Shown here: in pieces, positions 2,994 through 52,614 of the stretch
How the letters are laid out: each line of letters begins with the position of its first letter
How positions within the stretch are numbered: position 1 is the first letter of the stretch
Source: Jiangella asiatica
Lineage (GTDB): Bacteria > Actinomycetota > Actinomycetes > Jiangellales > Jiangellaceae
DNA: 64,000 bases
Assembly (NCBI RefSeq): GCF_004349065.1
Contig: NZ_SMKZ01000034.1
Location: 1 to 64,000 of the forward strand
Reading direction: 5' to 3'
Notes under the pieces: generated by a model
Told to the model about the DNA's origin: nothing
Databases searched by the model: none
Seen by the model: the letters and a program-made list of their open reading frames with translations, nothing else
Position numbers and translations under genes: made by a program

Positions 2994-4526
2994 TCACAGG
3001 TAGTCGCGCAAGCCCTTGTCCGCTAGGTCGCGGATGGCGGCGGGCGGGACGAGACCGTCGTCGAAGCGGCGGGTGTCCTGCCAGTCGCCGTGTGCGGCGG
3101 GGAGGGTGTTCTGGATGCGCTGGGTGGTGACCAGCCAGTCCAGCAGCCGCCGGCGCAGCCGCTCCACGATGTCGCGGTGCTCGGGGCTGTGGTAGAGGTT
3201 CGTCAGCTCCCAAGGGTCGGCGGCCAGGTCGTAGAGCTCACCGACGTCGCCGTCCTCGGGCGGGAAGAAGCCGTCCGGGTAGGTCACCAGCTTCCAGTCG
3301 GGGGTGCGTACGGCCTTGGACCATGGGCACTCGGTGAAGACGGCGTCCCGCTCCGGTCCGCCTTCACCGCGCAGCGCGGGCCCGAGGTCGTGGCCGTCCC
3401 AGCTGGTCAGATCCGGGAGTCCGGCCAAGGCCGAGACGGTCGGGAAGAGGTCCACGGACTCGACCAGGTCGTCGCGGGTCGCGCCCTGCGGCAGGTGACC
3501 CGGCCAGCTCCAGATGTAGGGCACCCTGGTGATCGCGTCGTAACTGATGCCCGGCGCCTTCTCGATCAGGCCGTGCTCGCCAGCGAAGTCACCGTGGTCG
3601 GCGGTGTAGACGACGATGGTGTCCTGTGAGATGCCCCGCTGGTCGAGCAGGTCCAGCAGCTGCCCGATGGCATGGTCGGTCTGGCTGACCAGCGCGAAAT
3701 ATGCGCGCAGGACCCGCCGGCGGCCCGCCTCGTACGTGGCCGGCTCGAAGTACCAGTCGCCGTCCGGTCCCTTGGCCCGCCAGCTGGCGCGCTGGTGAGG
3801 CGGTTTTCCGTCGAAGGGGTCGTCGGCGTTGGGCGGCAGCGTGACGGTGTCCTCGGAGTAGGCACTCCAGAACGGCTCGGACGGCGTCCAGACCTGGTGC
3901 GGCCGCGGAAAGCTCACCCAGGCCAGCCATGGCTGATCGCCGGCCGCGGTGATGAATCGGGCGGCCTCGTCGGCACACCACTGCTCGACGCTGTGCTCCA
4001 GCGGAAGCGTGGAGAGCCGGGCGTCCAGGCCCTGCCCGTCGCTGTTGCCACGGCGCGCGAAGTGCTCGGGCAGGATGCGGTCGTCGCGCCGGCTCGACAA
4101 GCCGAATGCGTCCAGGTACTCGCCGTAGGCATCCGGGGCGAGGAAGCCGATGCAGTCGCGCAACGTGTCGACGTGCGGCTCGATCCAGTCCCGCGGAGTG
4201 TGCGTCTTGCCGATCACCCCGGTGTGGTAGCCGGCGGCCTTGGCGTGTCCGAAGAGCGATGGCAGCGTTCTCGGGCCGGCTGGGCCGGGCCGGCGCGGAT
4301 CGGACAGGCCGTAGTAGCCGTGGTTGTGGCAGTACTGCCCGGACAGGAACGACACCCTGCTGGGGGTGCAGATGGGGTTCTGCGCGAAGGCACGGGTGAA
4401 CCGGATCCCACGTCTGGCGAGGCGGTCCAGTGCCGGCGTGGTGACGTCGGGGTGACCGGCGTGCGACATGCACCGCGCGTTGTGTTGGTCCGACATGATG
4501 AACAGGACATTCGGCGGACGCGACAA
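2994..4526 (-). CDS. Sulfatase (Cys-type, formylglycine-dependent)
   Basis: 510 residues. The N-terminus PNVLFIMSDQH carries the first metal ligands of the alkaline-phosphatase-like fold. The sulfatase signature CTPSR lies at residues 53-57, where Cys53 must be converted to formylglycine by a maturase encoded elsewhere. A second metal-site motif, YTADHGDFAGEHG, lies near residue 320. There is no signal peptide, so the enzyme is predicted to be cytoplasmic. It would remove sulfate esters from imported oligosaccharides rather than from the polymer. It lies between the beta-helix gene and an ABC importer. Substrate position specificity cannot be read from the sequence. Confidence 0.93.
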   Translation of the reverse strand: MSRPPNVLFIMSDQHNARCMSHAGHPDVTTPALDRLARRGIRFTRAFAQNPICTPSRVSFLSGQYCHNHGYYGLSDPRRPGPAGPRTLPSLFGHAKAAGYHTGVIGKTHTPRDWIEPHVDTLRDCIGFLAPDAYGEYLDAFGLSSRRDDRILPEHFARRGNSDGQGLDARLSTLPLEHSVEQWCADEAARFITAAGDQPWLAWVSFPRPHQVWTPSEPFWSAYSEDTVTLPPNADDPFDGKPPHQRASWRAKGPDGDWYFEPATYEAGRRRVLRAYFALVSQTDHAIGQLLDLLDQRGISQDTIVVYTADHGDFAGEHGLIEKAPGISYDAITRVPYIWSWPGHLPQGATRDDLVESVDLFPTVSALAGLPDLTSWDGHDLGPALRGEGGPERDAVFTECPWSKAVRTPDWKLVTYPDGFFPPEDGDVGELYDLAADPWELTNLYHSPEHRDIVERLRRRLLDWLVTTQRIQNTLPAAHGDWQDTRRFDDGLVPPAAIRDLADKGLRDYL

Positions 4527-29440: not shown

Positions 29441-30653
29441 GACAACTGCTACGGCGCCAGCTGCGGCCCATGCACTCTGCGCGACCGCGCCACTGTCCTG
29501 CTCACTACCCCGGCCACCGGGCGTATCCAGGAACAGCTGACGCCGGTGTTCGACGCGACGCTGACCTCCGATCGCCCGCAGACCGCGCTCTACTGGCTCA
29601 GCCGCCCACCCGGACACGGACCATGGGTACTCGCTGCGATGGCGTCCGGTGAGCTGGAGATCAGCCGCACCACGTTCGAGCAGCTGCCGGCAGACAAGGC
29701 CACAACTACCTGCGGAACCTGCTAGCCGCGGTCGGCGTGCTGCCGGCGTATCACGCCCGGATCGAGCGGATGCTCCCGTGGCTGCACCAGCACCTTGCCG
29801 AGCTGCCGGCCGAGCACGCCGACCTCGTCGGCCGGTTCGCCCGCTGGCAGGTGATCCGCAAACTGCGCCTCGCCGCCGAACGGGCCGAGCTCACCAACAC
29901 CCAGGTCGTGAACGCCCGCAACCGGATCCTCGCCGCGATCCGGTTCCTGACCTGGACCGCCGAACAGGCAATCCCGATCAACGAGGCGACGCAGGCCGAC
30001 CTCGACCGCTACCTCGCCGGCCAGGCCCGCACTACCGGCGCCACCCTGCACGGCTTCATCGCCTGGCTGCGCGGCAGCGGCATCAACACCAGCCTGGCGA
30101 CCACGCCGCGACCGCAGGCCCTGCCGGAGGTCACCATGTCCGAGCAGGAACGATGGGCCCACGTCGACCTGCTCCTGCACGACGACACGATCCGCCTCTA
30201 CACCCGCATCGGCGGGCTGTTCATGCTGCTGTTCGCCCAGCCGCTGGCCACCATCTGCCGCATGCGCACCGACCAGATCACCGTCACCGACGGCGGTGAG
30301 GTGCTGGCCCGGTTCAACGCCACGCCCCTGCAGATGCCCGCACCGCTCGACGCGCTCATCCGCGACCACCTGACCCGGCGACGCCAGGTCTCCTACGTCA
30401 GCCGGAACGGTCGATGGCTGTTCCCCGGCGGTATCCCCGGCAACCCGGACCCACAGAGAACATCCGTAGCCAGCTCGTCGCGCGCGGCATCAAAACCCAC
30501 GACTCACGCAAGGCCGCGCTGTTCCAGCTCGCCGCCGAGGTGCCCACCCCGATCCTGGCCGACCTGCTCGGCATCCACACCACCCCCGCCGTCGCCTGGG
30601 CCACCCTCGCAGCCCGCGACTGGAGCGGCTACCTCGCCGAACGAGCTCGCTGA
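29441..30653 (+). pseudogene. Recombinase-companion gene, broken by frameshifts
   Basis: Coding similarity continues through three frames. A Cys-rich start (CYGASCGPCTLRDR, about 29444-29485) and LLTTPATGRIQEQL in one frame; from about 29705 LRNLLAAVGVLPAYHARIERML and a long helical region in a second frame; from about 30465 RSQLVARGIKTHDSRKAALF to the stop at 30653 in a third. This is the zinc-ribbon-containing partner often paired with the tyrosine recombinase upstream in actinobacterial mobile elements. The frame breaks mean it is inactive. Confidence 0.65.
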
Positions 30654-30659
30654 CGGCTC

Positions 30660-31097
30660 TCACGTCAAGTGGTCGACGGCGTCGGCGAGCTCCTCAACGC
30701 GACGCCGGCCGTCGAGCTCGAGACTTGCTCCCGCACGCAGCAACGGCTCGACCTCGGCGGCATATCGACGGATCTCGGCCTGCTGCTCCGATGTCCGTCC
30801 GTATGGGTTGTTCGAGCGTCGTGCGACACGATCGATCAGGACCTCGACGGGCGCGCTGAGCAGCACCACATGATCGAACCGGTCATAGAAGCGGCCCTGG
30901 TTCTCGACCGCGCCGGACACGACGACGTCGCGGTGCGTCGCCAGGAGCTCCTCCATCCGGAGCTCGTCCCAGCCGCCATCGGCGCGCACCCAGCCGCCGT
31001 AGTCGGTGTCGACCGTGCGACGTCCACGCCGCTCCAACTCCTTCAGCAGGGTCGACTTTCCCGCTCCGGACATGCCGGTGACCAGGATGCGAGGCAC
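30660..31097 (-). CDS. P-loop NTPase/kinase-like protein
   Basis: 145 residues, GTG start at 31097. The N-terminus VTGMSGAGKSTLLKEL is a Walker A motif in the manner of small nucleotide- or shikimate-kinase-like proteins. A lid-like RVARRSNNPYGRT and a C-terminal acidic helix follow. Walker B is not obvious. It probably phosphorylates a small molecule. Standing alone and convergent with the recombinase remnants, its role is unknown. Confidence 0.8.
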   Translation of the reverse strand: MPRILVTGMSGAGKSTLLKELERRGRRTVDTDYGGWVRADGGWDELRMEELLATHRDVVVSGAVENQGRFYDRFDHVVLLSAPVEVLIDRVARRSNNPYGRTSEQQAEIRRYAAEVEPLLRAGASLELDGRRRVEELADAVDHLT

Positions 31098-40078: not shown

Positions 40079-41340
40079 ATGGTTGACGCCCTGCCGCTCC
40101 GGATCTTCCTAGCCTCCCCGGGCGGCCTTGAGGATGAACGCGCTGCAGCGCGCGCATGTGCTAGCGAGCACGGGGTCCGCCGCGATGGCGTCAGCAACGT
40201 GACCTACGAAGTGATCGAGTGGGATCGCGTGCGTGGCACCGCGCGACGGGCGCAGGAGGCGATCAATGAGTTGATCGCCGAAAGTCACTTCATGATCGTG
40301 CTGTTCAAGAGTGCCTGGGGCAGCGAGCCGGGCAGCCCATGGGGATACACCTCCGGCACCGAGGCTCTTCACGGGCCTGCTTGAGCTGGGGCAAGCTGAG
40401 CAGCCGATGCGGGACATTCGGGTCGCGTTCATCGAGGATCCGAACCCGAACGAACGGATCGTCGAACTGCGCCAGCAGATCGTGGAGCGACATTCGGTGA
40501 TGTTTGAGTCAATCGTTGACGTGGGAGATCTGAAGCAGAAGCTGGCCGTACGCCTCGAGTCGTGGGAGACGCTTGCAGGCACCAAGATCCCCAGACACGT
40601 TGATCTGCTGTCGTCTTCCGGGAAGATGTGCTGCGGGCCGCGAACCAACGACTACGGGGCGAGAAGCTCGTCGACCTCGGGCAGCCCGACGCTGGGCGCG
40701 CGGCGCTGGAGGAGGCTGCGGCTCTGGGCGGCCCGATCGAGCTCTTGGCATACGCGAGGCTCCTCCGCCGGGACGGCGACCTGAACGGCGCGTACGTCTC
40801 CACGCAAAGGCGATTAGGTACTTCGTCGAAGGGGGCAGTCTCTACTCAACGCTCGCCGCGGACGCCTTCTCCGCTCAAGCCAGGGTGCTTAGCGCCCAGG
40901 GTCGCCACAACGACGCCATCGGACGGCTTGAACACGCGCTCACCCTGCTGCTCGCAGACGACGGTTACGCCCGGACGGTCCGCTGCCGGATACTCGACGA
41001 CATCGGGCTCGCACGCAGAAGGTCAACGATCTGTCGGGTGCTCGACGGAGCTTCGAGGCGGCTTTGCAGGTGAGGCGTGAGTCTGGGCGAGGCACCGAGG
41101 TATACAGTCCTTGATTAACCTCGCGAGACTCGAAGTGGCCGACGGTGAGCTGGACACCGCCGCCGGTTACGCGGATGAGGTGATCGCGACCCTTCGCGGG
41201 ACACCTCCGTCTGGCCTGCACGCGAACGCGTTTCGAGACGACGATCGACCTAGCTCTATGAGGCGCAGGACAACCAGCCGAGCACGACTGACGACGCCGA
41301 TGCCGTCGTTGCCGATTCCGAGCCGAGACCACACTCCACC
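40079..41340 (+). pseudogene. DUF4062-like/TPR protein, multiply frameshifted
   Basis: It starts intact at 40079 with LPLRIFLASPGGLEDERAAA and an IEWDRVRGTARRAQEAIN segment typical of DUF4062 (TIR-like) N-termini. It breaks near 40370, continues in another frame (FTGLLELGQAEQPMRDIRVA), breaks near 40625 (LRAANQRLRGEKLVDLGQPD), near 40800 (FSAQARVLSAQGRHNDAIGR), and again about 41030 and 41240, where TPR-like INLARLEVADGELDTAAGYA appears. At least five breaks make it dead. The last recognisable codons abut the prophage attachment site. Confidence 0.6.
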
Positions 41341-41363
41341 CCGGAGCGTGGGGTTGTGGTGAG

Positions 41364-41391
41364 TGTCCGAGGGGGGACTTGAACCCCCACA
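41364..41391 (-). other. attL candidate: 3' fragment of a tRNA-Leu-like gene
   Basis: On the minus strand these bases read GTGGGGGTTCAAGTCCCCCC followed by CTCGGACA: a complete T-arm and acceptor 3' strand with discriminator A, as at the end of actinobacterial tRNA-Leu. The 5' two-thirds of a tRNA is absent on either side. That is what integration into a tRNA 3' end leaves at the prophage end away from the tRNA body, so the intact tRNA should be at the right end. Confidence 0.75.
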
Positions 41392-41447
41392 CTGTCTGAG
41401 GCCAAACGGCTTCTCACCAGCCAGTATGGCACAGGGGGAGGCCCGGA

Positions 41448-41509
41448 GGTAACGCGGAGGTATCCGCGTTCTGCCAGCACTTTTCCAATCGGTCGTTACC
41501 AAGGTAACG
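41448..41509. promoter_or_regulatory. GGTAACG repeats and palindromes beside attL
   Basis: CGTTACC-AA-GGTAACG (41494-41509) is a perfect palindrome. GGTAACG recurs at 41448-41454, and CGCGGA-GGTA-TCCGCG (41453-41468) is another perfect inverted repeat. The cluster lies 60-120 bases from the attachment core and directly before the first prophage gene. It could be integrase arm-type sites or a repressor operator. Confidence 0.45.
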
Positions 41510-41534: not shown

Positions 41535-41966
41535 ATGTCCAACCAGACACCCACCATTCCGCCCGTCCCGCAGCCGCCGGCCACGAAGCGCCGCCGCTGG
41601 CCGTGGATCGCTGCCATCGTCCTGGCGCTGTTCGCTGGCGTCGGCATCGGCTCTGCGTCCGGCGAGACCGGGACGACCGCGATGCCGGAGCCGCAGGTCG
41701 TCACTGAGACGGTGACCGAGACGGTCACCGAGGAAGTGGCCGTCACGCCGGACGCCTGCCTGAACGCGCTCGATGCCGCCGAGGCCGTGATCTCTCACGC
41801 GCAGACCGCGATCGGGCGGATGGGTGAGGGCTTCGAGGCTGCAGCCTCCTTCGACATCAGTGGCCTCGACGAGTTGACTGCCTGGCTGGATGAGCAGACG
41901 CCGGTGGTGCGCGACGCGCGTGCCGAGTACGACACTCGGGCAGCTGAGTGCAGGAGCGCCGAGTGA
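41535..41966 (+). CDS. Single-pass membrane protein of the prophage surface cluster
   Basis: 143 residues. A Pro-rich basic cytoplasmic start is followed by a membrane helix (WPWIAAIVLALFAGVGIGSA), a Thr/Val/Glu linker (VTETVTETVTEEV) and an alpha-helical outer domain with two Cys (about residues 76 and 139). Similar proteins are common in actinophages and their hosts, with no known function. The stop overlaps the next start (TGATG), so it leads an operon. Confidence 0.8.
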   Translation: MSNQTPTIPPVPQPPATKRRRWPWIAAIVLALFAGVGIGSASGETGTTAMPEPQVVTETVTETVTEEVAVTPDACLNALDAAEAVISHAQTAIGRMGEGFEAAASFDISGLDELTAWLDEQTPVVRDARAEYDTRAAECRSAE

Positions 41967-42520
41967 TGGCCGCCCACCGTGCACCTCGCAGCCGGCCGCG
42001 CCACGCGCGCCGCAGCGCTCGCCGGCCCCGCGGACTACGCTTCCTGATCCCGCTGCTGGCTCTTGCCGTGGCGTTCGTCGGTGGCGTGGCGACGGCCACG
42101 GCCGGCGGCGGCTACCTGCGCGAGGCCGACGTAGATAACCCGATCGCGAGCCGTGGCTGCGTCATCCGCTTCGACACGCTCTCGAGGTCGGGCGCCTCGG
42201 TCGTTCCGCGCATCCATGCGAACGAGACTCACGCCTGCGTCGGCGTGACGTCCCTGTCGGTGGACTGGTCGTCGGGCTCCAGCCGCGGCGACCTGATCCT
42301 CAACAACACTGGCGGACCCGGCGCGGTCGTGTCGGTGACGGTCGAGGAGGACGAGTCGCTCGCGGCTCGGGACATCCAGTGCGGACCGTCTGGCGGCGGC
42401 ACAACGACCCGCATCCGTTGCTATCGCGACGGCGTGAAGATCCCGGCGTACTCGCTGGAGATGTATGGCAAGAACGTGAACCTGTGGGTGGGGTGGGACA
42501 TGTGGATGGGGGAACTGTGA
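41966..42520 (+). CDS. Membrane-anchored protein with a phage tail-tip-like domain
   Basis: 184 residues. An Arg-rich N-terminus and a hydrophobic segment (residues 25-47) act as signal anchor or signal peptide. The remaining roughly 130 residues are homologous to the tail-tip protein at 49168-49791. Matching blocks are RGCVIRF/RACVVRF, IHANETH (83-89 versus 45-51), WSSG/DSSG, DESLAARDI/DESLVARGI, GPSGG and a terminal NLWVGW/NVWLAW. Three Cys pairs could stabilise an exported domain. The start is ATG 41966 (GTG 41948 possible). No function is recorded to my knowledge; display of a tail-like domain is inference. Confidence 0.8.
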   Translation: MAAHRAPRSRPRHARRSARRPRGLRFLIPLLALAVAFVGGVATATAGGGYLREADVDNPIASRGCVIRFDTLSRSGASVVPRIHANETHACVGVTSLSVDWSSGSSRGDLILNNTGGPGAVVSVTVEEDESLAARDIQCGPSGGGTTTRIRCYRDGVKIPAYSLEMYGKNVNLWVGWDMWMGEL

Positions 42521-42627
42521 GCGACCGGCAGCTCAGCTGGGCGGTCGCCCTGATCATCCTCGTGCTGCTCGTGGTGGCGGTCATCGTTGCCGGCGACGAG
42601 CCGGTCCGTCTGGAGGACATGCGATGA
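42517..42627 (+). CDS. 36-residue membrane protein
   Basis: GTG start overlapping the previous stop (GTGA). The short protein is one membrane helix (WAVALIILVLLVVAVIVAG) with charged ends. It overlaps the next gene's ATG as well, so it is embedded in the coupled series. It could be a holin-like or membrane-partner peptide; no family is recognised. Confidence 0.65.
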   Translation: MSDRQLSWAVALIILVLLVVAVIVAGDEPVRLEDMR

Positions 42628-42737
42628 CCGAGCCGCTACCGCCCGATGTCGTCGAGGATGATGACCCCGACTGGGACTCTGACGACCTTCCCTCCACCGC
42701 CGACCCCGGCGTGGTGACCGACCCGAAGGAGGAGTGA
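42624..42737 (+). CDS. 37-residue acidic protein
   Basis: ATG overlapping the upstream stop (ATGA). The product is very acidic and Pro-rich (EPLPPDVVEDDDPDWDSDDL) with no hydrophobic stretch. AAGGAGGAG at its 3' end forms the ribosome site of the next gene. No family recognised; the coupled position supports that it is translated. Confidence 0.55.
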   Translation: MTEPLPPDVVEDDDPDWDSDDLPSTADPGVVTDPKEE

Positions 42738-42739
42738 TC

Positions 42740-42922
42740 ATGGCACCGCCTGACTACGTCGAACGCGTGGACGCGGTCCACGCTGAGCTGTGGTCGCTGC
42801 TGGCGCCGCAGACCGCATACGAGCGGAAGATCGTAGCGTGGATGCGCGTCGGGCTGGACCTGTCGACGCTGGAGCCGCTGCGGAACATGGTGGCGCGGGC
42901 CCGCTCGCGAGAGGATGGCTGA
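42740..42922 (+). CDS. Small helical prophage protein
   Basis: 60 residues from the ATG at 42740 behind AAGGAGGAG. Predicted mostly helical (YVERVDAVHAELWSLLAPQT, then KIVAWMRVGLDLSTLEPLRN). It overlaps the following gene by 8 bases. Unknown function. Confidence 0.65.
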   Translation: MAPPDYVERVDAVHAELWSLLAPQTAYERKIVAWMRVGLDLSTLEPLRNMVARARSREDG

Positions 42923-43187
42923 CATGCCTACCCCTTCCCGCCTGCTCCCGTGCCCGCTGTGCGGTGCCGAGGTCGAGCGGTTCACGATGACCGCAGCGTA
43001 TGCGGTGGCGACTCCGCGTGGCGTCGAGATCGTGACGCCTGTGACCGAGGTGTCCGGGCCCTACCCGGACCGGATGATGGAGCGGGTCACAGACCATGAC
43101 CGATGGACGCTGCTCCCCTGCGGCCACCAGTTCGAGCGGCGGGAGCACCCGGGCTGGGTGGCGACATTCGCGAGCGAGGGAGAGTGA
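42915..43187 (+). CDS. Small zinc-ribbon-like prophage protein
   Basis: 90 residues with a CPLCG knuckle near the N-terminus and a second Cys/His group (LLPCGHQF) near the end, the layout of a small zinc ribbon. The middle is beta-rich. Such proteins are frequent among actinophage early genes, function unknown. It overlaps the preceding gene. Confidence 0.65.
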   Translation: MADMPTPSRLLPCPLCGAEVERFTMTAAYAVATPRGVEIVTPVTEVSGPYPDRMMERVTDHDRWTLLPCGHQFERREHPGWVATFASEGE

Positions 43188-43191
43188 CGAG

Positions 43192-43365
43192 GTGGGCGAC
43201 TACCGCGACCGCATCAAGCACAGAGGCGAGAGCGAGCCAGACCGCTCGCAGTTCGAGCCAGGCGACCTGTGGGAGCGTCCCGACGGGTCGCTCTGGATGC
43301 CAGATCACCGCGGCTGGTCGCGGGTCTACACCTGGGAGCAGGCCATTGAAGGCCTAGACACGTAA
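43192..43365 (+). CDS. Small hypothetical prophage protein
   Basis: 57 residues from GTG 43192, four bases after the previous stop and behind GACGAG. Charged, with a Trp/Asp-rich segment (FEPGDLWERPDGSLWMPDHR). No family recognised. A hairpin follows its stop. Confidence 0.55.
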   Translation: MGDYRDRIKHRGESEPDRSQFEPGDLWERPDGSLWMPDHRGWSRVYTWEQAIEGLDT

Positions 43366-43369
43366 GCGG

Positions 43370-43400
43370 GGCCGCCCGGAGCGGGAACTCCGGACGACCC
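43370..43400 (+). terminator. Hairpin after the small-gene operon
   Basis: CCGGAG and CTCCGG form the core of an inverted repeat that extends with mismatches to GGGCCG/CGACCC, with a 6-base loop. No U-run follows. It may end or attenuate the upstream operon before the two genes downstream. Confidence 0.4.
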
Positions 43401-43436
43401 CTTGACCCACTACCTGATGAGAGCAGGTGTGGACCC

Positions 43437-43559
43437 ATGCCCGACCCTACCGATCCTCCTGGATTCGAGCGCATCGTCCGCCGCATCAGGATCGCGGTGT
43501 GGCTGCTCGTCGCGTTCGTCGCCCTGCCGCTCGCGCTCTGGCTGGTCGGCCGCTACTGA
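43437..43559 (+). CDS. 40-residue membrane protein
   Basis: ATG at 43437 after AGCAGGTGTGG. The basic N-terminus (GFERIVRRIRIAV) leads into one membrane helix (WLLVAFVALPLALWLVG). Small single-pass phage proteins of this kind include immunity and holin-like peptides; no family is recognised. It is separated by 83 bases from the LPXTG gene. Confidence 0.55.
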   Translation: MPDPTDPPGFERIVRRIRIAVWLLVAFVALPLALWLVGRY

Positions 43560-43642
43560 GAGTCGTGGCGTGGGGTGCAAGACAGATCAACCGTGAGCCG
43601 CTACGCTGCGGCCCGTACATACCGTACATTTCGGAGGGGCAC

Positions 43643-44341
43643 ATGAAAAAGACATTCGCCGTGCTGGTGGCAGCGTTCGCGCTGCTGCTGGGCGGCTCCG
43701 CGCCGGCGCTGGCGACTGGTGGTGACACCCCGACGCCGGGCTACAACCACGACCCGCACGACGCGCAGGAGTGCGCGGTCACGCTGATGGCGTGGCTGGA
43801 GCACGAGACCGCGGCGGACTGGCAACTGTTCTTCACCGTCGATGGTGGGGAAGAGTACGGCTCGCCGCTGCCCGCGCTGATCGAGCTGACGCCGGAGTTC
43901 TTCGGCGGCGCAGATTCGGGCGCGCACGAGGTGACCTACTGGACGGAGTCCGTGCACGGCAAGAGCACCGACAAGGTGTCGTTCGCCGTCCAGTGTGGCG
44001 AGCCGGAGCCTGAACCCACAGAGGAGCCGACCACAGAGCCGCCGACTGACGAGCCGACGGATGAGCCCACGGACGAACCGACCGAAGAGCCGACCACGGA
44101 ACCGACCGAAGAGCCGACCACGGAACCGACCACGGAACCGACGGCCGACCCCACGCAGGAGCCGACCACGGAGCCCACGACCGAGCCGACGGATGAGCCG
44201 GGCGACGACGACGGCAATGCCGGCGGCAATGAGGGCGACGACGAGCTGCCCGACACCGGCGCTGGCACGACGGCGCTCGCGCTGGCCGGCGTGGCACTGC
44301 TCGCCGGCGGCTACGCGCTATACCGACGCGCCGCACTGTAG
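43643..44341 (+). CDS. Prophage-encoded LPXTG-anchored surface protein
   Basis: 232 residues with a Sec signal peptide (KKTFAVLVAAFALLLGGSAP, cleavage near ALA-TGG). A folded part of about 100 residues with two Cys (within QECAVTLMAW and FAVQCGE) follows. Next comes a stalk of TEPT/DEPT-type tetrapeptide repeats, then a C-terminal sorting signal LPDTG followed by a membrane helix and a basic tail (YRRAAL). A host sortase should attach it to the cell wall. GGAGGGGC precedes the ATG. It is the last gene of the rightward cluster, just before a strong terminator. The role is unknown; superinfection exclusion or adhesion are possibilities. Confidence 0.85.
   Translation: MKKTFAVLVAAFALLLGGSAPALATGGDTPTPGYNHDPHDAQECAVTLMAWLEHETAADWQLFFTVDGGEEYGSPLPALIELTPEFFGGADSGAHEVTYWTESVHGKSTDKVSFAVQCGEPEPEPTEEPTTEPPTDEPTDEPTDEPTEEPTTEPTEEPTTEPTTEPTADPTQEPTTEPTTEPTDEPGDDDGNAGGNEGDDELPDTGAGTTALALAGVALLAGGYALYRRAAL
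44008..44200 (+). repeat. Repeats encoding the Thr/Glu/Pro stalk
   Basis: About 15 copies of a 12-base unit (variants of GAGCCGACCACG) encode tetrapeptides TEPT, DEPT and TEEP. The copies differ by only a few bases, so length variation between strains by slippage is likely. Confidence 0.85.
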
Positions 44342-44349
44342 GCACGCAA

Positions 44350-44386
44350 AAACGGCCCGGCCTCCACAAGGGAGGCCGGGCCGTTT
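44350..44386. terminator. Strong bidirectional terminator
   Basis: AAACGGCCCGGCCTCC and GGAGGCCGGGCCGTTT form a perfect 16-base stem with a 5-base loop, with A-rich DNA on the left and TTTCGTT on the right. It lies between the LPXTG gene and the end of the leftward structural operon, so it can stop both. Confidence 0.92.
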
Positions 44387-44983: not shown

Positions 44984-46147
44984 TCAGAACTCCCCTCCAG
45001 TAACCGTGCGTGCGAGCTCGGGCCCATCGACCTTGCGGCGCACCGCTGGCCCGTCGGGCGTCGGGTCCGTGACCCGTTCGGGCCCGGCGATGTCCTCGGT
45101 GCGCGCGTTCGCTCCGGTCACCGCTCGGCGCAGGGCTGCTCCGGTGACGTCGCGGGCGAGCGCGGGACCGTCGGGTGTCGGCTCGGCATCTCGTTCCGGT
45201 CCGGTGACGGCGCCGACGTGGACGCCGCCGGTGTCCTCGTCGACTACGACCGGTGGCCCGAACTCGAGGTCGACCGCCAGGGGCTCGGCGGTGGTTCTGT
45301 ACGCCGCAGCCGCAGCCGGCGCACCGAATGCGACGACCACGGCGAGCGGGTCCGCTTCTGTCTGGCTGCCACCGCTGACCGCGGGCGGTCCGTAGTCGAC
45401 GTCGACCCCGAGCGGGGCGGCCTGGGCGGCGTAGGCCGCAGCGGCGCCGGGTGGCGCGAACTCGACGGCGACGGTCAGCGGCTCGGCTGTCGTCGAGCGC
45501 GCGGCCCGCGCGGTGGGTGCACCGAAGTCGACGTCTACGGGGAGCGGGTCGCCAGTGGTCTGGTCTCCGCCGCCACCGAGGTCGCCAACCTCGAAGTCGT
45601 CGAAGATCACGCGGCGATCAGAGCTGACGCTGTTGCGGAATCCGTTCAGGCCGCCGAACGAGCCAGCCGTGATGTCGGAGTCGGTGACCGAGTCGATCAG
45701 AACGTCGTTGATGTAGACGCGGATCTCGTCGCCCTCGACCTCTATGCGAGACGTCTCGGGGAACACGAACGGTACTGACACGCCCGGGTCGGCAAGATAC
45801 GTCAGCTCGCCACCGACGTACTTGCGGATCTCCCACGTAGCATCGACAGTGCCTGCTTGGGTGATTCGCTTGAAGCAGTAGAACGTCTGCCGGTCGGCGC
45901 TCATGCGGACGCACAGGCCGATGTCGGCGTAGGACGCGCCGCCGAAGTCGGGGATGACCAGCTGGACGTACATGTCGGCGGAGCCAGTGTCCGCCTCGGC
46001 GCGAGCGGTGATCTCCGCCGCGGTGGTACCGGCGATGACGCCGCGGTTCGACGCGGTCTGCCACTGGGTGTCGGGGTCGGTCCACGTTAGGTCCGGGCCG
46101 AGCCCGACGCCGTCGGCCTTATTGAACGACTCAGTGAACGCTGCCAC
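44984..46147 (-). CDS. Fibre-like protein: lectin-type jelly roll plus repeats
   Basis: 387 residues. The first roughly 195 residues look like a concanavalin-type jelly roll (AAFTESFNKADGVGLGPDL, later IEVEGDEIRVYINDVLIDSV and FDDFEVGDLGG), often carbohydrate-binding. Then come five imperfect 25-residue repeats of the form DPLPVDVDFGAPTA or AEPLAVDLEFGPPV, and a C-terminal stretch with two PTPDGPA copies. The design suggests a receptor-binding head on a repeated shaft. No match to a named fibre family. Confidence 0.75.
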   Translation of the reverse strand: MAAFTESFNKADGVGLGPDLTWTDPDTQWQTASNRGVIAGTTAAEITARAEADTGSADMYVQLVIPDFGGASYADIGLCVRMSADRQTFYCFKRITQAGTVDATWEIRKYVGGELTYLADPGVSVPFVFPETSRIEVEGDEIRVYINDVLIDSVTDSDITAGSFGGLNGFRNSVSSDRRVIFDDFEVGDLGGGGDQTTGDPLPVDVDFGAPTARAARSTTAEPLTVAVEFAPPGAAAAYAAQAAPLGVDVDYGPPAVSGGSQTEADPLAVVVAFGAPAAAAAYRTTAEPLAVDLEFGPPVVVDEDTGGVHVGAVTGPERDAEPTPDGPALARDVTGAALRRAVTGANARTEDIAGPERVTDPTPDGPAVRRKVDGPELARTVTGGEF

Positions 46148-47678: not shown

Positions 47679-47996
47679 CTACTCGTACGTCTTCGGCTCG
47701 ACGAGGCGCTCGACGGTGACCTCATTGGCGACGACGGCACCAGTGGGGGCGGCCGCCGCCTCGCCGGCGCGGAAGTTGCCGGCACCGTCCACGCGCGCCA
47801 GGACACTCGGGTCTGCGGGACGGGTGGCTGCGCTGACGCCGAGGCCGACGCCGAGCGCGATGACCGCGCCGAGCCACTGGACAGTCGTCAGGTCGTCGAA
47901 GCCGCCCTCGGCCGGCACCACGCCGACGAAGTACGAGGCCAGGATGACGGCGACGAACAGGGCGATGTACAGCCACTTGGGCAGGACGATGGTCAT
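47679..47996 (-). CDS. Holin candidate (two membrane helices)
   Basis: 105 residues from the ATG at 47996. Two hydrophobic stretches (WLYIALFVAVILASYFVGVV and VQWLGAVIALGVGLGVSA) separated by a short polar loop, and a long charged C-terminus, fit a class II holin. It lies next to a second small membrane protein and the endolysin, the usual lysis-cassette order. It would form the membrane lesion that times lysis. Confidence 0.7.
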   Translation of the reverse strand: MTIVLPKWLYIALFVAVILASYFVGVVPAEGGFDDLTTVQWLGAVIALGVGLGVSAATRPADPSVLARVDGAGNFRAGEAAAAPTGAVVANEVTVERLVEPKTYE

Positions 47997-48010
47997 GATG
48001 ATCTCCGATC

Positions 48011-48211
48011 TCAGGGGATTCCGCCGGCGAACGCGTTGCCGACGGCGCTGCCTACCGCCGCCGCCACGCCGGCCGCGATCCATATGGCCCGCTCCAGGCG
48101 GCGGATGCGGGACTCGTGGTCGAGCACCTTCGGCGCCAGGTGCTCCCGCAGCATCGTGTGGATCTCGACCAGTCGGTCGTGGTCCGACGTGGGGATGTCC
48201 TCCCCGTTCAC
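48011..48211 (-). CDS. XhlA/DUF2746-like membrane protein of the lysis cassette
   Basis: 66 residues, GTG start overlapping the endolysin stop (GTGA). A coiled-coil part (HTMLREHLAPKVLDHESRIR) precedes a C-terminal membrane helix (AIWIAAGVAAAVGSAVGNAF). This topology matches hemolysin XhlA-like or DUF2746 holin partners. Likely works with the holin encoded next to it. Confidence 0.7.
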   Translation of the reverse strand: MNGEDIPTSDHDRLVEIHTMLREHLAPKVLDHESRIRRLERAIWIAAGVAAAVGSAVGNAFAGGIP

Positions 48212-49152
48212 GCCACACCCTCGCGAAGGGCTTCCTTCACCGCCTGCTTCACCGTCGCCTTATCGACGTCGCCGCACTCAGGAAGGCGAGCGAGGATCAG
48301 GTCGGCGGTGATGTCGGCGGTGAGTTCGGCGATACGCTGCTCGTCCAGCTGGTCGCCCCCGGACATCGCCTTGATCCAGTTGTACATGCGCTGGATCGCG
48401 ATGCCGAGCGTGAGCCGCCGGCCGTCCTCGATGGTCTCGCCGCCAACGGTCGCGGACAGCCGCGTGGCCCGCTGCAGCTCCGTCAGGTACGACGGCTGAC
48501 CATCCTTCCGGTTGAGCGGCGACTCCCATGTCGCACGGTGGGGCTGCTCGATCGAGTCCGGGTGGCTCCAGACCGCGTCGGCGATCTCCTTCGCAGTGGG
48601 CATGTCGTCGTCCTCTCCGAGGGGTGCGCCGGCCGCGAGCCACGGCCGGAAGATCTCGTTGAACTGCTCGACCCGGTCGGGGCCGGGGCAGGACTTGGCG
48701 ACCGGGGTCCACGGCCCGGGTGCGCCGAACAGCACGTGATAGCCGAGACCACTGGCGTTCCAGGCGGGGCAGACGCGGGCCGGGAAGTCGTGCACGTCCA
48801 TGCCCCACCGGTACAGCCGCTTGAGCGAGACGATCATCTCCGGCGTCCACTCGCCGTACTCGAGGCCCTCGGTCTCGACGGACAGCAGCCCGTACCGCTT
48901 TCCGCCAGACACCCACGAGTTGCCTTTGTAGTTGGCGTCGGCCTCGCGGGTGCTGTCGCGGTACTGCTCGACGGTGCCGTCGAAGCGGACGTACAGGTGC
49001 GACTCGATGCCGCCGGACGGGCCGTTGAAGTACGGGAACAGCGAGTCGCCCAGGCCGGCGCGGACGTGAAACACCATGCCCACGGGGATGATGCGGGGGT
49101 CGTTGCCGCCGGGTGGAATCTCCTTGCGGATGGCGTCGGGATACCAGGCCAT
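48208..49152 (-). CDS. Endolysin: N-acetylmuramoyl-L-alanine amidase
   Basis: 314 residues. The amidase-2/PGRP fold covers residues about 1-165, with zinc ligands readable as His29 (VGMVFHV), His139 (GLGYHVLFG) and Cys155 (KSCPGP). The region ESHLYVRFDGTVEQYRD is typical of actinophage amidases. The C-terminal 130 residues are helical with no clear cell-wall-binding repeat and may mediate binding or multimerisation. It cuts the bond between muramic acid and the peptide stem at lysis. Confidence 0.9.
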   Translation of the reverse strand: MAWYPDAIRKEIPPGGNDPRIIPVGMVFHVRAGLGDSLFPYFNGPSGGIESHLYVRFDGTVEQYRDSTREADANYKGNSWVSGGKRYGLLSVETEGLEYGEWTPEMIVSLKRLYRWGMDVHDFPARVCPAWNASGLGYHVLFGAPGPWTPVAKSCPGPDRVEQFNEIFRPWLAAGAPLGEDDDMPTAKEIADAVWSHPDSIEQPHRATWESPLNRKDGQPSYLTELQRATRLSATVGGETIEDGRRLTLGIAIQRMYNWIKAMSGGDQLDEQRIAELTADITADLILARLPECGDVDKATVKQAVKEALREGVA

Positions 49153-49167
49153 GCGGGACCTCCCCGG

Positions 49168-49791
49168 TCAGATTTGGGCGTACGCCTCGTTGAACTGGGC
49201 GATGTTCTGCCCGTCGTGGCTGGTGTTGAGTTGGGCGATCGACTGTCCGTCCAGGTGCTGGTTGAACCGGGCCACGCTGCCCGGCGTGCGGCGCTGGAGG
49301 TCGGCGACTTTCTCCTCCAGCTCGGCAATGCGGTCGGTAGGCGACGGGCGGCCGGTGCTGCGCACCCGTGGCGTCAGCCACGCCAGCCACACGTTGCAGG
49401 TCTCCCCGGCGATGGCGTCCCAGTCGGCCTGCAGGTTCAGGTAGAGCCGGCCGACACCGTCCTGGCGGGCGATGAACCGGGTGCCGGGTGCGCCGCCGGA
49501 CGGCCCGAGGTCGATGCCCCGCGCTACCAGGGACTCGTCGGGTGTGCAGGTGATGGAGCCGATGGGGGCGCCCCCGTCGTTGATGACCTCGAGCCGGCCG
49601 GACGAGTCAATGTGCACGCCCAGCGCGCCGACGGCGACGTGGGTCTCATTGGCGTGGATGTACGGGCCACCGGACTGGAACGACCCGTCAGGGTTGACCA
49701 CGCCGGGCTCGAAGCGGACGACGCAGGCCCGGATGTCCCATTCGATGTCGGGATGGGTGGCGTCCTTGAACGGCCCGATTTCGTTGGCCAT
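49168..49791 (-). CDS. Tail-tip/fibre protein with an IHANETH domain and DGQ repeats
   Basis: 207 residues from the ATG at 49791, overlapping the previous stop by one base. An N-terminal beta-rich domain (IHANETH at 45-51, DESLVARGIDLGPSGG at 85-100) is homologous to the membrane-anchored protein at 41966-42520. A coiled-coil (DRIAELEEKVADLQRRT) and a C-terminal tail with repeated FNQHLDGQSIAQLN / SHDGQNIAQFN follow. The same repeats end the large tail protein upstream. Most likely a trimeric tail-tip fibre that contacts the host. Confidence 0.75.
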   Translation of the reverse strand: MANEIGPFKDATHPDIEWDIRACVVRFEPGVVNPDGSFQSGGPYIHANETHVAVGALGVHIDSSGRLEVINDGGAPIGSITCTPDESLVARGIDLGPSGGAPGTRFIARQDGVGRLYLNLQADWDAIAGETCNVWLAWLTPRVRSTGRPSPTDRIAELEEKVADLQRRTPGSVARFNQHLDGQSIAQLNTSHDGQNIAQFNEAYAQI

Positions 49792-50352: not shown

Positions 50353-52614
50353 TCAGCTCACTCTCAGGGGGTCGGCGTTGAAATCGGCGATGGTCTGGCC
50401 GTCCCAGAGCGCATTAAGGTCGGCGATGGTCTGGCCGTCCCACGCCTGGTTGAACTCGGCGATGGTCGGCAGTAGGGGTCGGACGTCGATGTACTGGTCG
50501 ATGTTGCCCGCGGTGCCGCCGTGCTCGATGGCGACAACGACACCCCGCAGCGGCTCGAGCCCGGTGACGTCAGGGTCGGAGATCTCAACGATGTCGCCGA
50601 GTTGGCGCCGCGGTTCCCACAGGACCGGGACTCTCTGCAGGATCGCCCGCGGCGCGGACAGCTCGGCGGCGAGGAAACTCGCCAGGTCGAGAGCTGATGA
50701 GTTGTCCTGGACGTAGGGCGACTCGTCCAGGGTCAGCTCTTCTGCACGCACACCCTCGTTGTCGACCTCGGCGTACTCCGACGCCTGGCTGGCCTGGATG
50801 ATCCGCTGCCGCGCCCGGATGAACAGGTCTGGCGCGTCGCTACCGTTGCCAGCGACGAGCCACACACGGCCGGAGTGGTTGTTGGTGACAATGACTCGCG
50901 CGACCCGCGGCCCGCTGGGGTCGACCTCAACCTGCACCGACGTCGACACGTCCGAACCTGAGCCGTCAGCGGCCGTGTTGGCGCGGAACCGCGTGCCGGT
51001 AGAGCCGGTGCCGGCCGTCGCCGTCGTGTCGATCCCGATGGCGATGCCGTTCAGATTCACCGACAGGCGCTTGGTGGCGTTGGCCCCCACGGAGATCACC
51101 GTGCCGGTCTCCTGGGCGCTCCACACGGTGTGTGCGTAGTCGTCGGACAGGTATGACGTGACCGGCAGTACGGGTACCTGGACGCTGGAGCGGACCTGCT
51201 CGACGGCCTCGCGCCACGACACGTCCATCAGCGACGTTCGCGACGTGATCTCGTGGACCGGCTCGCCGATGCCGCGCAGCGACTGGCGGTTCCGAAAGGT
51301 TGGAGTCCCCTGCTCGTCCAGCCAGACGGCGCCCAACTCGGCCTCGGCGACCTCTCGAAGGGCGTCCCACCCGTTGTCGCGGAACAGCCCGGGCGTGGCG
51401 TCGATCCGTCCGATGGTCGGGTCGAGACTGGCTGACGGGACGAAGCCGATCATGGCATGCGCGCCGGATGGGTTGGACCGGACCGCCACGCCGGCCAGTG
51501 CCATCCCCTCTTCGCTGGTCACCTGAACGTAAGAAACGCCGTTGCTGTGAGCTCCTACGAGACTCGTCGACTGAGAGCCGCCCTCATAGAACAGGATTAC
51601 GTTGTTGGTGGCGCCGTCGTGCTCGACATCGATTGAGAATCGACCACCGGGCCAGCCAGTGAATGTGTGGGTCGGAGTTCCCAACGTGTTGATGGCGACC
51701 TCGATCTCACCGGGCCTGATCCGAACCCTGGTCCAGGCGAGTCCGGCCGATTGCAGAAGGATCTCCGTCTGCCCCGATTCGCCGTTTGCCCATCCATGGA
51801 TGCGGACCCAGTCGGTCTCTACCAGTCGCGCCGGGCGCACCCGGAAGACAAAGTCTCCGGTCAGAGCGAGGAACCGCTCACCGGTGTCCCATGCCTGGCT
51901 GACGAAGGTCGGATTGTCCTCGGTGACCCCGTTGCGCGCCTGGATGAGCTCCCCGTAGAAGGCGGTCGCGGACACCGACGTCCCGGCCGGGAGCTGTTCG
52001 GGCCACACCGTTCCCTGGAGCGGGCATGAGACCGCGGTGGAGGGCTCGGCCGCCGGCATCGTGTAGTACCCCAACTGCCGCAACACAGAGTCCATCACGT
52101 AGCTCCCAGACACCCCCGGGAACAGCAGCACCGAAGCGCCAGAGTCGGGGACGTAACGCATCTGCGACGCCAGCGGCGCGACGATGACATCTCGCCGCAG
52201 TAGGGCGGCGTCGTCGTCGCAGTCCACCGACATGACGTCGGTCAGCGCCGAGCCGCCAGCGTCCATGACCCGGCCCGTGAACACCGGCACCAGGGACGGG
52301 CGGCCATCGGTGCCGATGAAGCCGGCCCGGATGGAGCAGCCCGACTCGACCACTCGCGAAGCTGTCTTGGAGAACGGGTTCCGGGCGACCTGCGTCTCAA
52401 TGTCGGCGGCCGGGATCTCCGCCTGAGCGTCCGCCACCGACTGCCCGGAGATGCCCCGCACCTGAGCCGGCAGGTAGGTCGCGATCTCCCGGCGCACACT
52501 CCACGAGTCAGGCTCAACGTCCGTCCGCGCGCCGGCAACGTCGCCGACATCAACAACAGCGACAGGCTCAGAGACGGTCAGGTCGGTCGGCCAGTTCGCC
52601 GGCGTCGGCTGCAT
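50353..52614 (-). CDS. Large minor tail protein (tail hub/tip)
   Basis: 753 residues, ATG 52614 overlapping the distal tail gene's stop. The N-terminal part (ATYLPAQVRGISGQSVADAQ, then GCSIRAGFIGTDGRPSLVPV) and a C-terminal region with LWEPRRQLGDIVEISDPDVT resemble siphovirus tail-hub proteins. In the middle a jelly-roll-like module (WVRIHGWANGESGQTEILLQ) is inserted. The end has FNQAWDGQTIADLNALWDGQ and a further copy, matching the repeats of the fibre at 49168. It should form the tail tip complex. Confidence 0.75.
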   Translation of the reverse strand: MQPTPANWPTDLTVSEPVAVVDVGDVAGARTDVEPDSWSVRREIATYLPAQVRGISGQSVADAQAEIPAADIETQVARNPFSKTASRVVESGCSIRAGFIGTDGRPSLVPVFTGRVMDAGGSALTDVMSVDCDDDAALLRRDVIVAPLASQMRYVPDSGASVLLFPGVSGSYVMDSVLRQLGYYTMPAAEPSTAVSCPLQGTVWPEQLPAGTSVSATAFYGELIQARNGVTEDNPTFVSQAWDTGERFLALTGDFVFRVRPARLVETDWVRIHGWANGESGQTEILLQSAGLAWTRVRIRPGEIEVAINTLGTPTHTFTGWPGGRFSIDVEHDGATNNVILFYEGGSQSTSLVGAHSNGVSYVQVTSEEGMALAGVAVRSNPSGAHAMIGFVPSASLDPTIGRIDATPGLFRDNGWDALREVAEAELGAVWLDEQGTPTFRNRQSLRGIGEPVHEITSRTSLMDVSWREAVEQVRSSVQVPVLPVTSYLSDDYAHTVWSAQETGTVISVGANATKRLSVNLNGIAIGIDTTATAGTGSTGTRFRANTAADGSGSDVSTSVQVEVDPSGPRVARVIVTNNHSGRVWLVAGNGSDAPDLFIRARQRIIQASQASEYAEVDNEGVRAEELTLDESPYVQDNSSALDLASFLAAELSAPRAILQRVPVLWEPRRQLGDIVEISDPDVTGLEPLRGVVVAIEHGGTAGNIDQYIDVRPLLPTIAEFNQAWDGQTIADLNALWDGQTIADFNADPLRVS

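Follow-up and report, generated by a model that had tools for sequence, protein, structure and literature searches.

A gene cluster at the attR end of a Jiangella asiatica prophage encodes a predicted wall-anchored protein and a putative exported tail-fibre-type domain

A nine-gene cluster at one end of the prophage

We analysed a 64,000-nucleotide (nt) stretch of DNA from the actinobacterium Jiangella asiatica (assembly GCF_004349065.1, contig NZ_SMKZ01000034.1, positions 1 to 64,000 of the forward strand; hereafter the window), in which nine open reading frames (ORFs) on the + strand occupy 41535-44341, between an att site of a tailed prophage and the convergent late genes of that element. 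The nine small genes that a preliminary description had placed here are present as claimed. The cluster stands at the prophage end, separate from the structural and replication modules, as is the case for lysogenic-conversion (moron) cargo, and of the readings considered such cargo fits the layout best. Its most telling feature, absent from the preliminary description, is a tail-fibre-type domain in the product of the second gene, P0003. In order along the DNA the genes are:

41535..41966, + strand: P0002, 143 amino acids (aa); one N-terminal-proximal membrane helix and an ectodomain of ~100 aa; matches phrog_34894 (E 1.3e-18)
41966..42520, + strand: P0003, 184 aa; signal peptide or signal anchor and an all-beta, tail-fibre-type domain of ~120 aa
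42517..42627, + strand: P0004, 36 aa; single membrane helix
42624..42737, + strand: P0005, 37 aa; acidic, no family
42740..42922, + strand: P0006, 60 aa; no family
42924..43187, + strand: P0007, 87 aa; CPLCG and CGH motifs
43192..43365, + strand: P0008, 57 aa; no family
43437..43559, + strand: P0009, 40 aa; single membrane helix
43643..44341, + strand: P0001, 232 aa; signal peptide, Ig/Fn3-like domain (residues 25-120), PT-rich stalk and LPDTG anchor

The first seven ORFs are closely packed, with overlaps TGATG (41964-41968), GTGA (42517-42520) and ATGA (42624-42627) followed by gaps of 2, 1 and 4 nt, whereas P0009 and P0001 are uncoupled, being preceded by gaps of 71 and 83 nt. High third-position GC supports most cluster ORFs as coding, for those picked in the GC check. 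A membrane or signal segment, called at a 19-residue hydropathy peak >= 1.6, was detected in five of the nine ORFs (P0001 included) compared to 9 of 69 other prophage ORFs (Fisher one-sided p = 0.008; the comparison set was made by hand and is approximate, one entry containing two stops). However, P0005-P0008, four of the nine products, have neither a membrane segment nor a family, and to describe the cluster as devoted to the cell envelope is therefore too strong. Searches of Pfam, PHROGs and NCBIfam with the nine proteins gave good names for P0001 (anchor and PT repeat) and P0002 (phrog_34894) alone. The best zinc-ribbon match of P0007 (PF09723, E 0.042, 14.3 bits with a cut-off of 34.4) is sub-threshold, so that the suggested zinc ribbon was not substantiated; P0008 gave matches of E 0.2 at best. 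Scans of viral contigs with P0001, P0002, P0003 and P0008 returned a single record each, 100% identical and probably a contig of the same genome.

P0003 shares a domain with a protein of the tail operon

A search of 296 genomes with P0003 found matches in 10, its own genome included, where the second match is encoded in the tail operon of the same prophage:

49171..49791, - strand: tail-operon protein, 207 aa; same domain as P0003 and C-terminal repeats common to a 772-aa tail protein

P0003 and this protein align at 39% over 124 aa (pairwise E 1e-18). Separately, 50374-50466 of the window, which encodes the C-terminal stretch of the 772-aa tail protein, matched the C-terminal end of this tail-operon protein. 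Apart from those described here, no relatives of P0003, of P0007 or of the N-terminal part of P0001 were detected in the phage records or genomes searched.

The structural model of P0003 has confidence values (pLDDT) of 62-96 in ten-residue blocks from residue 61, with 65 in the last block. Searched against viral models (BFVD), it matched a tail endopeptidase from Bacillus phage PM1 best (E 1.3e-7), followed by minor tail proteins from the Arthrobacter phages Qui (2.9e-5), Shambre1 (1.6e-4) and Mendel (3.4e-3). Comparison of the domain profile (A7) with Mendel gp16, a minor tail protein, gave a probability of 92.5 (P 4.7e-7), the controls Mendel lysin and P0001 scoring 0.2 and 0.1. P0003 itself had no match to phrog_24580, a tail fiber protein family. 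Both the sequence profile and the fold point to a domain of the tail-fibre type, with weak fold support from the PDB. There is no cysteine at the end of the hydrophobic segment of P0003 and hence no lipobox.

Exported homologues were also observed elsewhere. Those at L060 5833-6339 and L061 5833-6336 are single-domain proteins of Exiguobacterium in like chromosomal neighbourhoods, and an exported protein at L047 1015-2406 contains by eye three tandem copies of the P0003 domain, two of which were entered in the tree described below.

A possible second pairing on a metagenomic phage contig

On the metagenomic phage contig L058 lies a gene whose product is homologous to the tail-operon protein (40% over 172 columns) and has the same MANE start and C-terminal segment; the genes around it match Dit and minor tail families. 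A profile of these two tail-operon proteins matched the J. asiatica genome only among 396 genomes of the phylum, and tblastn of phage records found no homologue of P0003 or of either tail protein. L058 also encodes P0011 (10225-10701), which by eye has a signal-like start. P0011 and the L058 tail protein matched phrog_24580 (4e-7 and 7.7e-4), and tblastn of P0011 gave matches in 20 phage records, mostly annotated tail proteins and including Mendel gp16. P0011 matched the domain profile weakly (probability 55, P 1.2e-4); its link to the tail-fibre family is drawn from phrog_24580 and the tblastn matches, not from this profile. It is placed among tail genes and not in a separate cluster, and the adjoining P0012 (10708-11058) is 38% alike over 94 aa. 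In some actinophages a single tail-fibre domain might exist in two versions, as a part of the tail and as a protein that the lysogen exports, so that the cell masks the receptor of its own phage, and the present prophage and L058 would be two such cases; we regard this reading as unlikely.

P0001 is a predicted substrate of the host sortases

The earlier claim of an LPXTG protein on a repeat stalk proved sound: the anchor of P0001 scores above the curated cut-offs of PF00746 and TIGR01167, and its stalk is PT-rich. An LPXTG motif, a hydrophobic stretch, a positive tail and an N-terminal signal (a signal peptide called by hydropathy alone) make P0001 a good candidate sortase substrate with predicted linkage to the wall. 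Across the host genome the anchor model found 20 places at E <= 1, one being P0001. Among the other 19, an LPxTG motif is carried by 17 (16 LPDTG and one LPNTG). Nine host sortases exceeded the Pfam cut-off. Of the eight compared with NCBIfam, four had class F as their best match, two of them over cut-off, and the other four class E, three of them over cut-off; one class E sortase, at C31:79196, lies 2.8 kb from the LPDTG protein at C31:76312. The host in which a sortase recognising LPDTG was to be sought thus has candidate sortases and uses the same motif.

P0001 has the same LPDTG signal and stalk type as the LPXTG substrates of the host, and similar stalks and anchors occur in other proteins of the genus. 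It differs from these substrates in being encoded by a prophage and in residues 1-120, for which the remaining 295 of 296 genomes of the class gave no relatives. Residues 25-120, when folded alone, formed an Ig/Fn3-like sandwich (pLDDT 80.6; best Z 8.5, with many ties) that had no match < 1e-3 among viral structure models. Neither P0001 nor its anchor was matched in 50,697 phage records. The statement that a sortase-anchored protein is unusual in an actinobacterial prophage may hold on this count for P0001 and its anchor, to which the search applied.

The prophage ends and the separation of the cluster from the late genes

The following features bound the cluster or belong to the neighbouring late operon:

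41362..41390, unstranded: att core, attR; 29 base pairs (bp) identical to the 3' end of host tRNA-Leu(GAG); unoccupied site in a genome of the same genus
41446..41509, unstranded: repeats of GGTAACG, among them the palindrome CGTTACCAAGGTAACG; similar motifs next to the tRNA, towards the integrase (L034 171-206)
44350..44386, unstranded: hairpin with a 16-bp stem (fold -40.5 kcal/mol, z -4.8), lying where the cluster and the late genes converge
47679..48218, - strand: membrane protein adjoining the endolysin, holin candidate; by hydropathy, without a family match
48208..49152, - strand: probable endolysin of the late operon; phrog_1493 (7e-6), Pfam Amidase_2 sub-threshold

Contig C60 carries tRNA-Leu(GAG) followed by a tyrosine integrase gene and, beyond it, a repressor, an excisionase-like gene, methyltransferases, a WhiB-like gene and a replication initiator. 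Terminase, portal, protease, major capsid, tail, tape measure and probable endolysin genes are found on contig C62. We infer that the ends of these two contigs are joined; the element is a tailed (siphovirus-like) prophage. L099, in the congeneric genome G002, aligns with the C60 flank and its tRNA at 3618-3786 (90.7%). At 3758-3831 it aligns with the host flank of the window (41317-41390) across the same core (97.3%), and another 103 columns match at 4103-4204. These alignments represent an unoccupied site, and 41362-41390 is therefore a true prophage end. Since the core is located at the end away from the integrase, which lies beside the tRNA on another contig, this end is attR and not attL as first labelled.

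The GGTAAC motif is repeated on both sides of the att core, and the repeats are probably integrase arm-type sites. The palindrome at 41494-41509 was considered and rejected as a repressor operator: similar motifs are present next to the tRNA, towards the integrase, and the repressor region has a different repeat, and the palindrome is therefore read as a putative integrase arm site. Five operator-like repeats resembling GTCGCATGCATGAGAC surround the start of the repressor gene (L034 3087-3300), and this motif has 9 matches near the repressor on both strands compared to 0.7 expected. The operator-like site GTCBCATGMATGAGAC (<= 3 mismatches) occurs 0 times in the whole window, with 2.4 expected by chance. 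The cluster therefore has no visible repressor operator, which would fit, without showing, its expression outside induction. A scan for sigma-70-like promoters found none, a result of little weight in an actinobacterium.

As to the strong terminator reported between the cluster and the lytic genes, a strong hairpin exists at 44350-44386, but it has no T-run on the + strand, TTTTT following on the - strand, and the terminator scan found no site there because of the missing T-run 3' of the hairpin on the + strand. That the cluster is separate from the late genes is indicated more by their convergent orientation than by the hairpin. No good relative of the tail protein at 44984-46147, beside the cluster, was found among the other members of a 99-genome set (best E 5.1e-5), and therefore no sister prophage was available for comparison of the cargo.

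On the host side of att, 40079-41362 contains broken ORFs spread over several frames, of which the first matches DUF4062 below threshold; this region resembles a decayed gene and is little conserved within the genus. In G006:C69, from the same genus, the host flank of the window (30021-31018) and an att-like stretch (45511-45571) lie ~14.5 kb apart, perhaps owing to another element at the same tRNA.

Proposed role of the cluster

The interpretation as lysogenic-conversion cargo, advanced in the preliminary description, is favoured by the location at the prophage end, the orientation counter to the late operon, the envelope enrichment and the host-matched LPDTG signal. We propose that the cluster combines surface remodelling at the attR end with exclusion of related phages by the exported tail-fibre-type domain, and give this statement as a whole a probability of about 0.4. 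P0001 would be exported and joined through LPDTG to the wall by a host sortase, with its Ig-like domain shown on a flexible stalk, and P0002, P0004 and P0009 would sit in the membrane. P0003 would be exported and would display or release a beta domain homologous to one in the tail operon of the phage. If displayed, this domain may occupy or mask the surface structure bound by such tails, and related phages would adsorb poorly. Exclusion in this manner is the most likely single mechanism, its probability taken alone being lower than that of the whole. The prophage ends, the gene layout, the anchor signal, the host sortases and the domain homology are established, whereas expression in the lysogen, surface location, binding and exclusion are predictions.

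Several results weigh against this proposal. Relatives of P0002 are found in replication-type operons beside an SSB gene in the Arthrobacter phages Jamun and Galaxy, the latter classed as temperate from the integrase and repressor annotated in it. They also occur in 194-kb phages, and P0002 is therefore unspecific to lysogenic cargo. A Foldseek search of the PDB with the P0003 model gave nothing < 1e-3. With VIA-align the PDB matches included VP37 of White Spot Syndrome Virus (Z 6.3), the tail fibre gp53 of phage AP22 (Z 6.1) and R-pyocin fibres (Z 5.4-5.7), all P0003 values (<= 6.3) being below the trust value advised for the tool; the fold list also contained toxin structures at Z 3.4-3.6, values that may mean a common arrangement only. 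Shambre1 gp21, whose length equals that of a top fold match, was unmatched in the profile comparison, which leaves that fold match unsupported. Export of this domain also occurs at chromosomal loci that appear not to belong to phages, four of them actinobacterial (one also being L059) and two of Exiguobacterium, and exclusion is therefore not its sole possible role. In the tree P0003 weakly groups with some of the exported proteins (70/90), apart from the tail copy of its own phage. Finally, P0003 may be either tethered, for display, or released. A duplication within the phage was also considered as the origin of P0003; given the weak grouping with exported proteins and the absence of a starred branch, a copy of the phage's tail domain is unsupported.

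The exported chromosomal homologues and the tree grouping imply that P0003 could be a borrowed adhesin. P0001 and P0003 would then be adhesins or polysaccharide-binding proteins that aid the lysogen, the tail and the cargo both having borrowed a general exported module. The Exiguobacterium homologues lie beside ORFs that we read as heparinase-like, and the Ig/Fn3-like domain of P0001 would suit such a role. This alternative deserves serious consideration, but we think it on balance improbable, as P0003 and its tail-operon homologue reside within one prophage and the fold and profile matches point to tail proteins.

Expression of the cluster in lytic growth, for example in keeping progeny or competing phages off the same cell or debris, would agree with the replication-type operons that hold P0002 relatives in Arthrobacter phages and with the lack of a sigma-70-type promoter-like site. 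The cluster, however, converges on the late operon and is followed by a strong hairpin before it, has no repressor operator nearby, and relies on sortase anchoring, which seems to us slow for lytic use; we judge this explanation unlikely. Less likely again is a mixture of small ORFs that serve no common purpose at an att end and include P0001 and P0003 as chance passengers: the four products without family or membrane segment and the translational uncoupling of P0009 and P0001 would be expected from it, but the close spacing of ORFs 1-7, the membrane enrichment and the high third-position GC over the picked ORFs would not. That the short, single-helix P0004 and P0009 are holin- or spanin-like lysis proteins is very improbable, as the late operon has its own probable endolysin and an adjacent membrane protein on the - strand, convergent with the cluster.

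Relation to known systems and significance

Superinfection exclusion at the level of the envelope is well known, and the cases at hand involve dedicated lipoproteins or receptor modification. Ltp of Streptococcus thermophilus phage TP-J34 is, according to PMC3952083, a superinfection-exclusion lipoprotein encoded in the lysogeny module, and the title of a work cited there states its target to be the tape measure protein. Ltp shares with the role proposed for P0003 that it is encoded by a prophage, exposed on the host surface and stops incoming phages. Ltp is a lipoprotein, whereas P0003 has no lipobox and carries a tail-fibre-type domain, and Ltp is encoded inside the lysogeny module, whereas the present cluster is located at the att end opposite the repressor and so outside such a module. 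Mendel gp16 of an Arthrobacter phage has a domain in common with P0003 by profile, and phrog_24580 is the family matched by P0011 and the L058 tail protein. Compared to minor tail proteins of actinophages, P0003 is distinguished by its export signal and its separate + strand cluster. PblA and PblB of Streptococcus mitis phage SM1 are phage tail proteins displayed on the bacterial surface; they are the tail proteins themselves, whereas in the present prophage a separate exported gene carries the domain. Literature searches on exclusion lipoproteins, tail fibre decoys, exported receptor-binding domains, phage LPXTG proteins and lysogenic conversion involving sortases showed no prophage exporting a tail-fibre domain, and a search on prophages in Jiangella gave no paper.

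The host-matched LPDTG signal of P0001 illustrates how closely a prophage can fit the wall-sorting machinery of its host. If the proposal is true, a lysogen exporting a homologue of a tail domain would represent a different and easily tested way of blocking adsorption, and the combination of a signal peptide with a tail-fibre domain would provide a cheap genomic flag for such systems.

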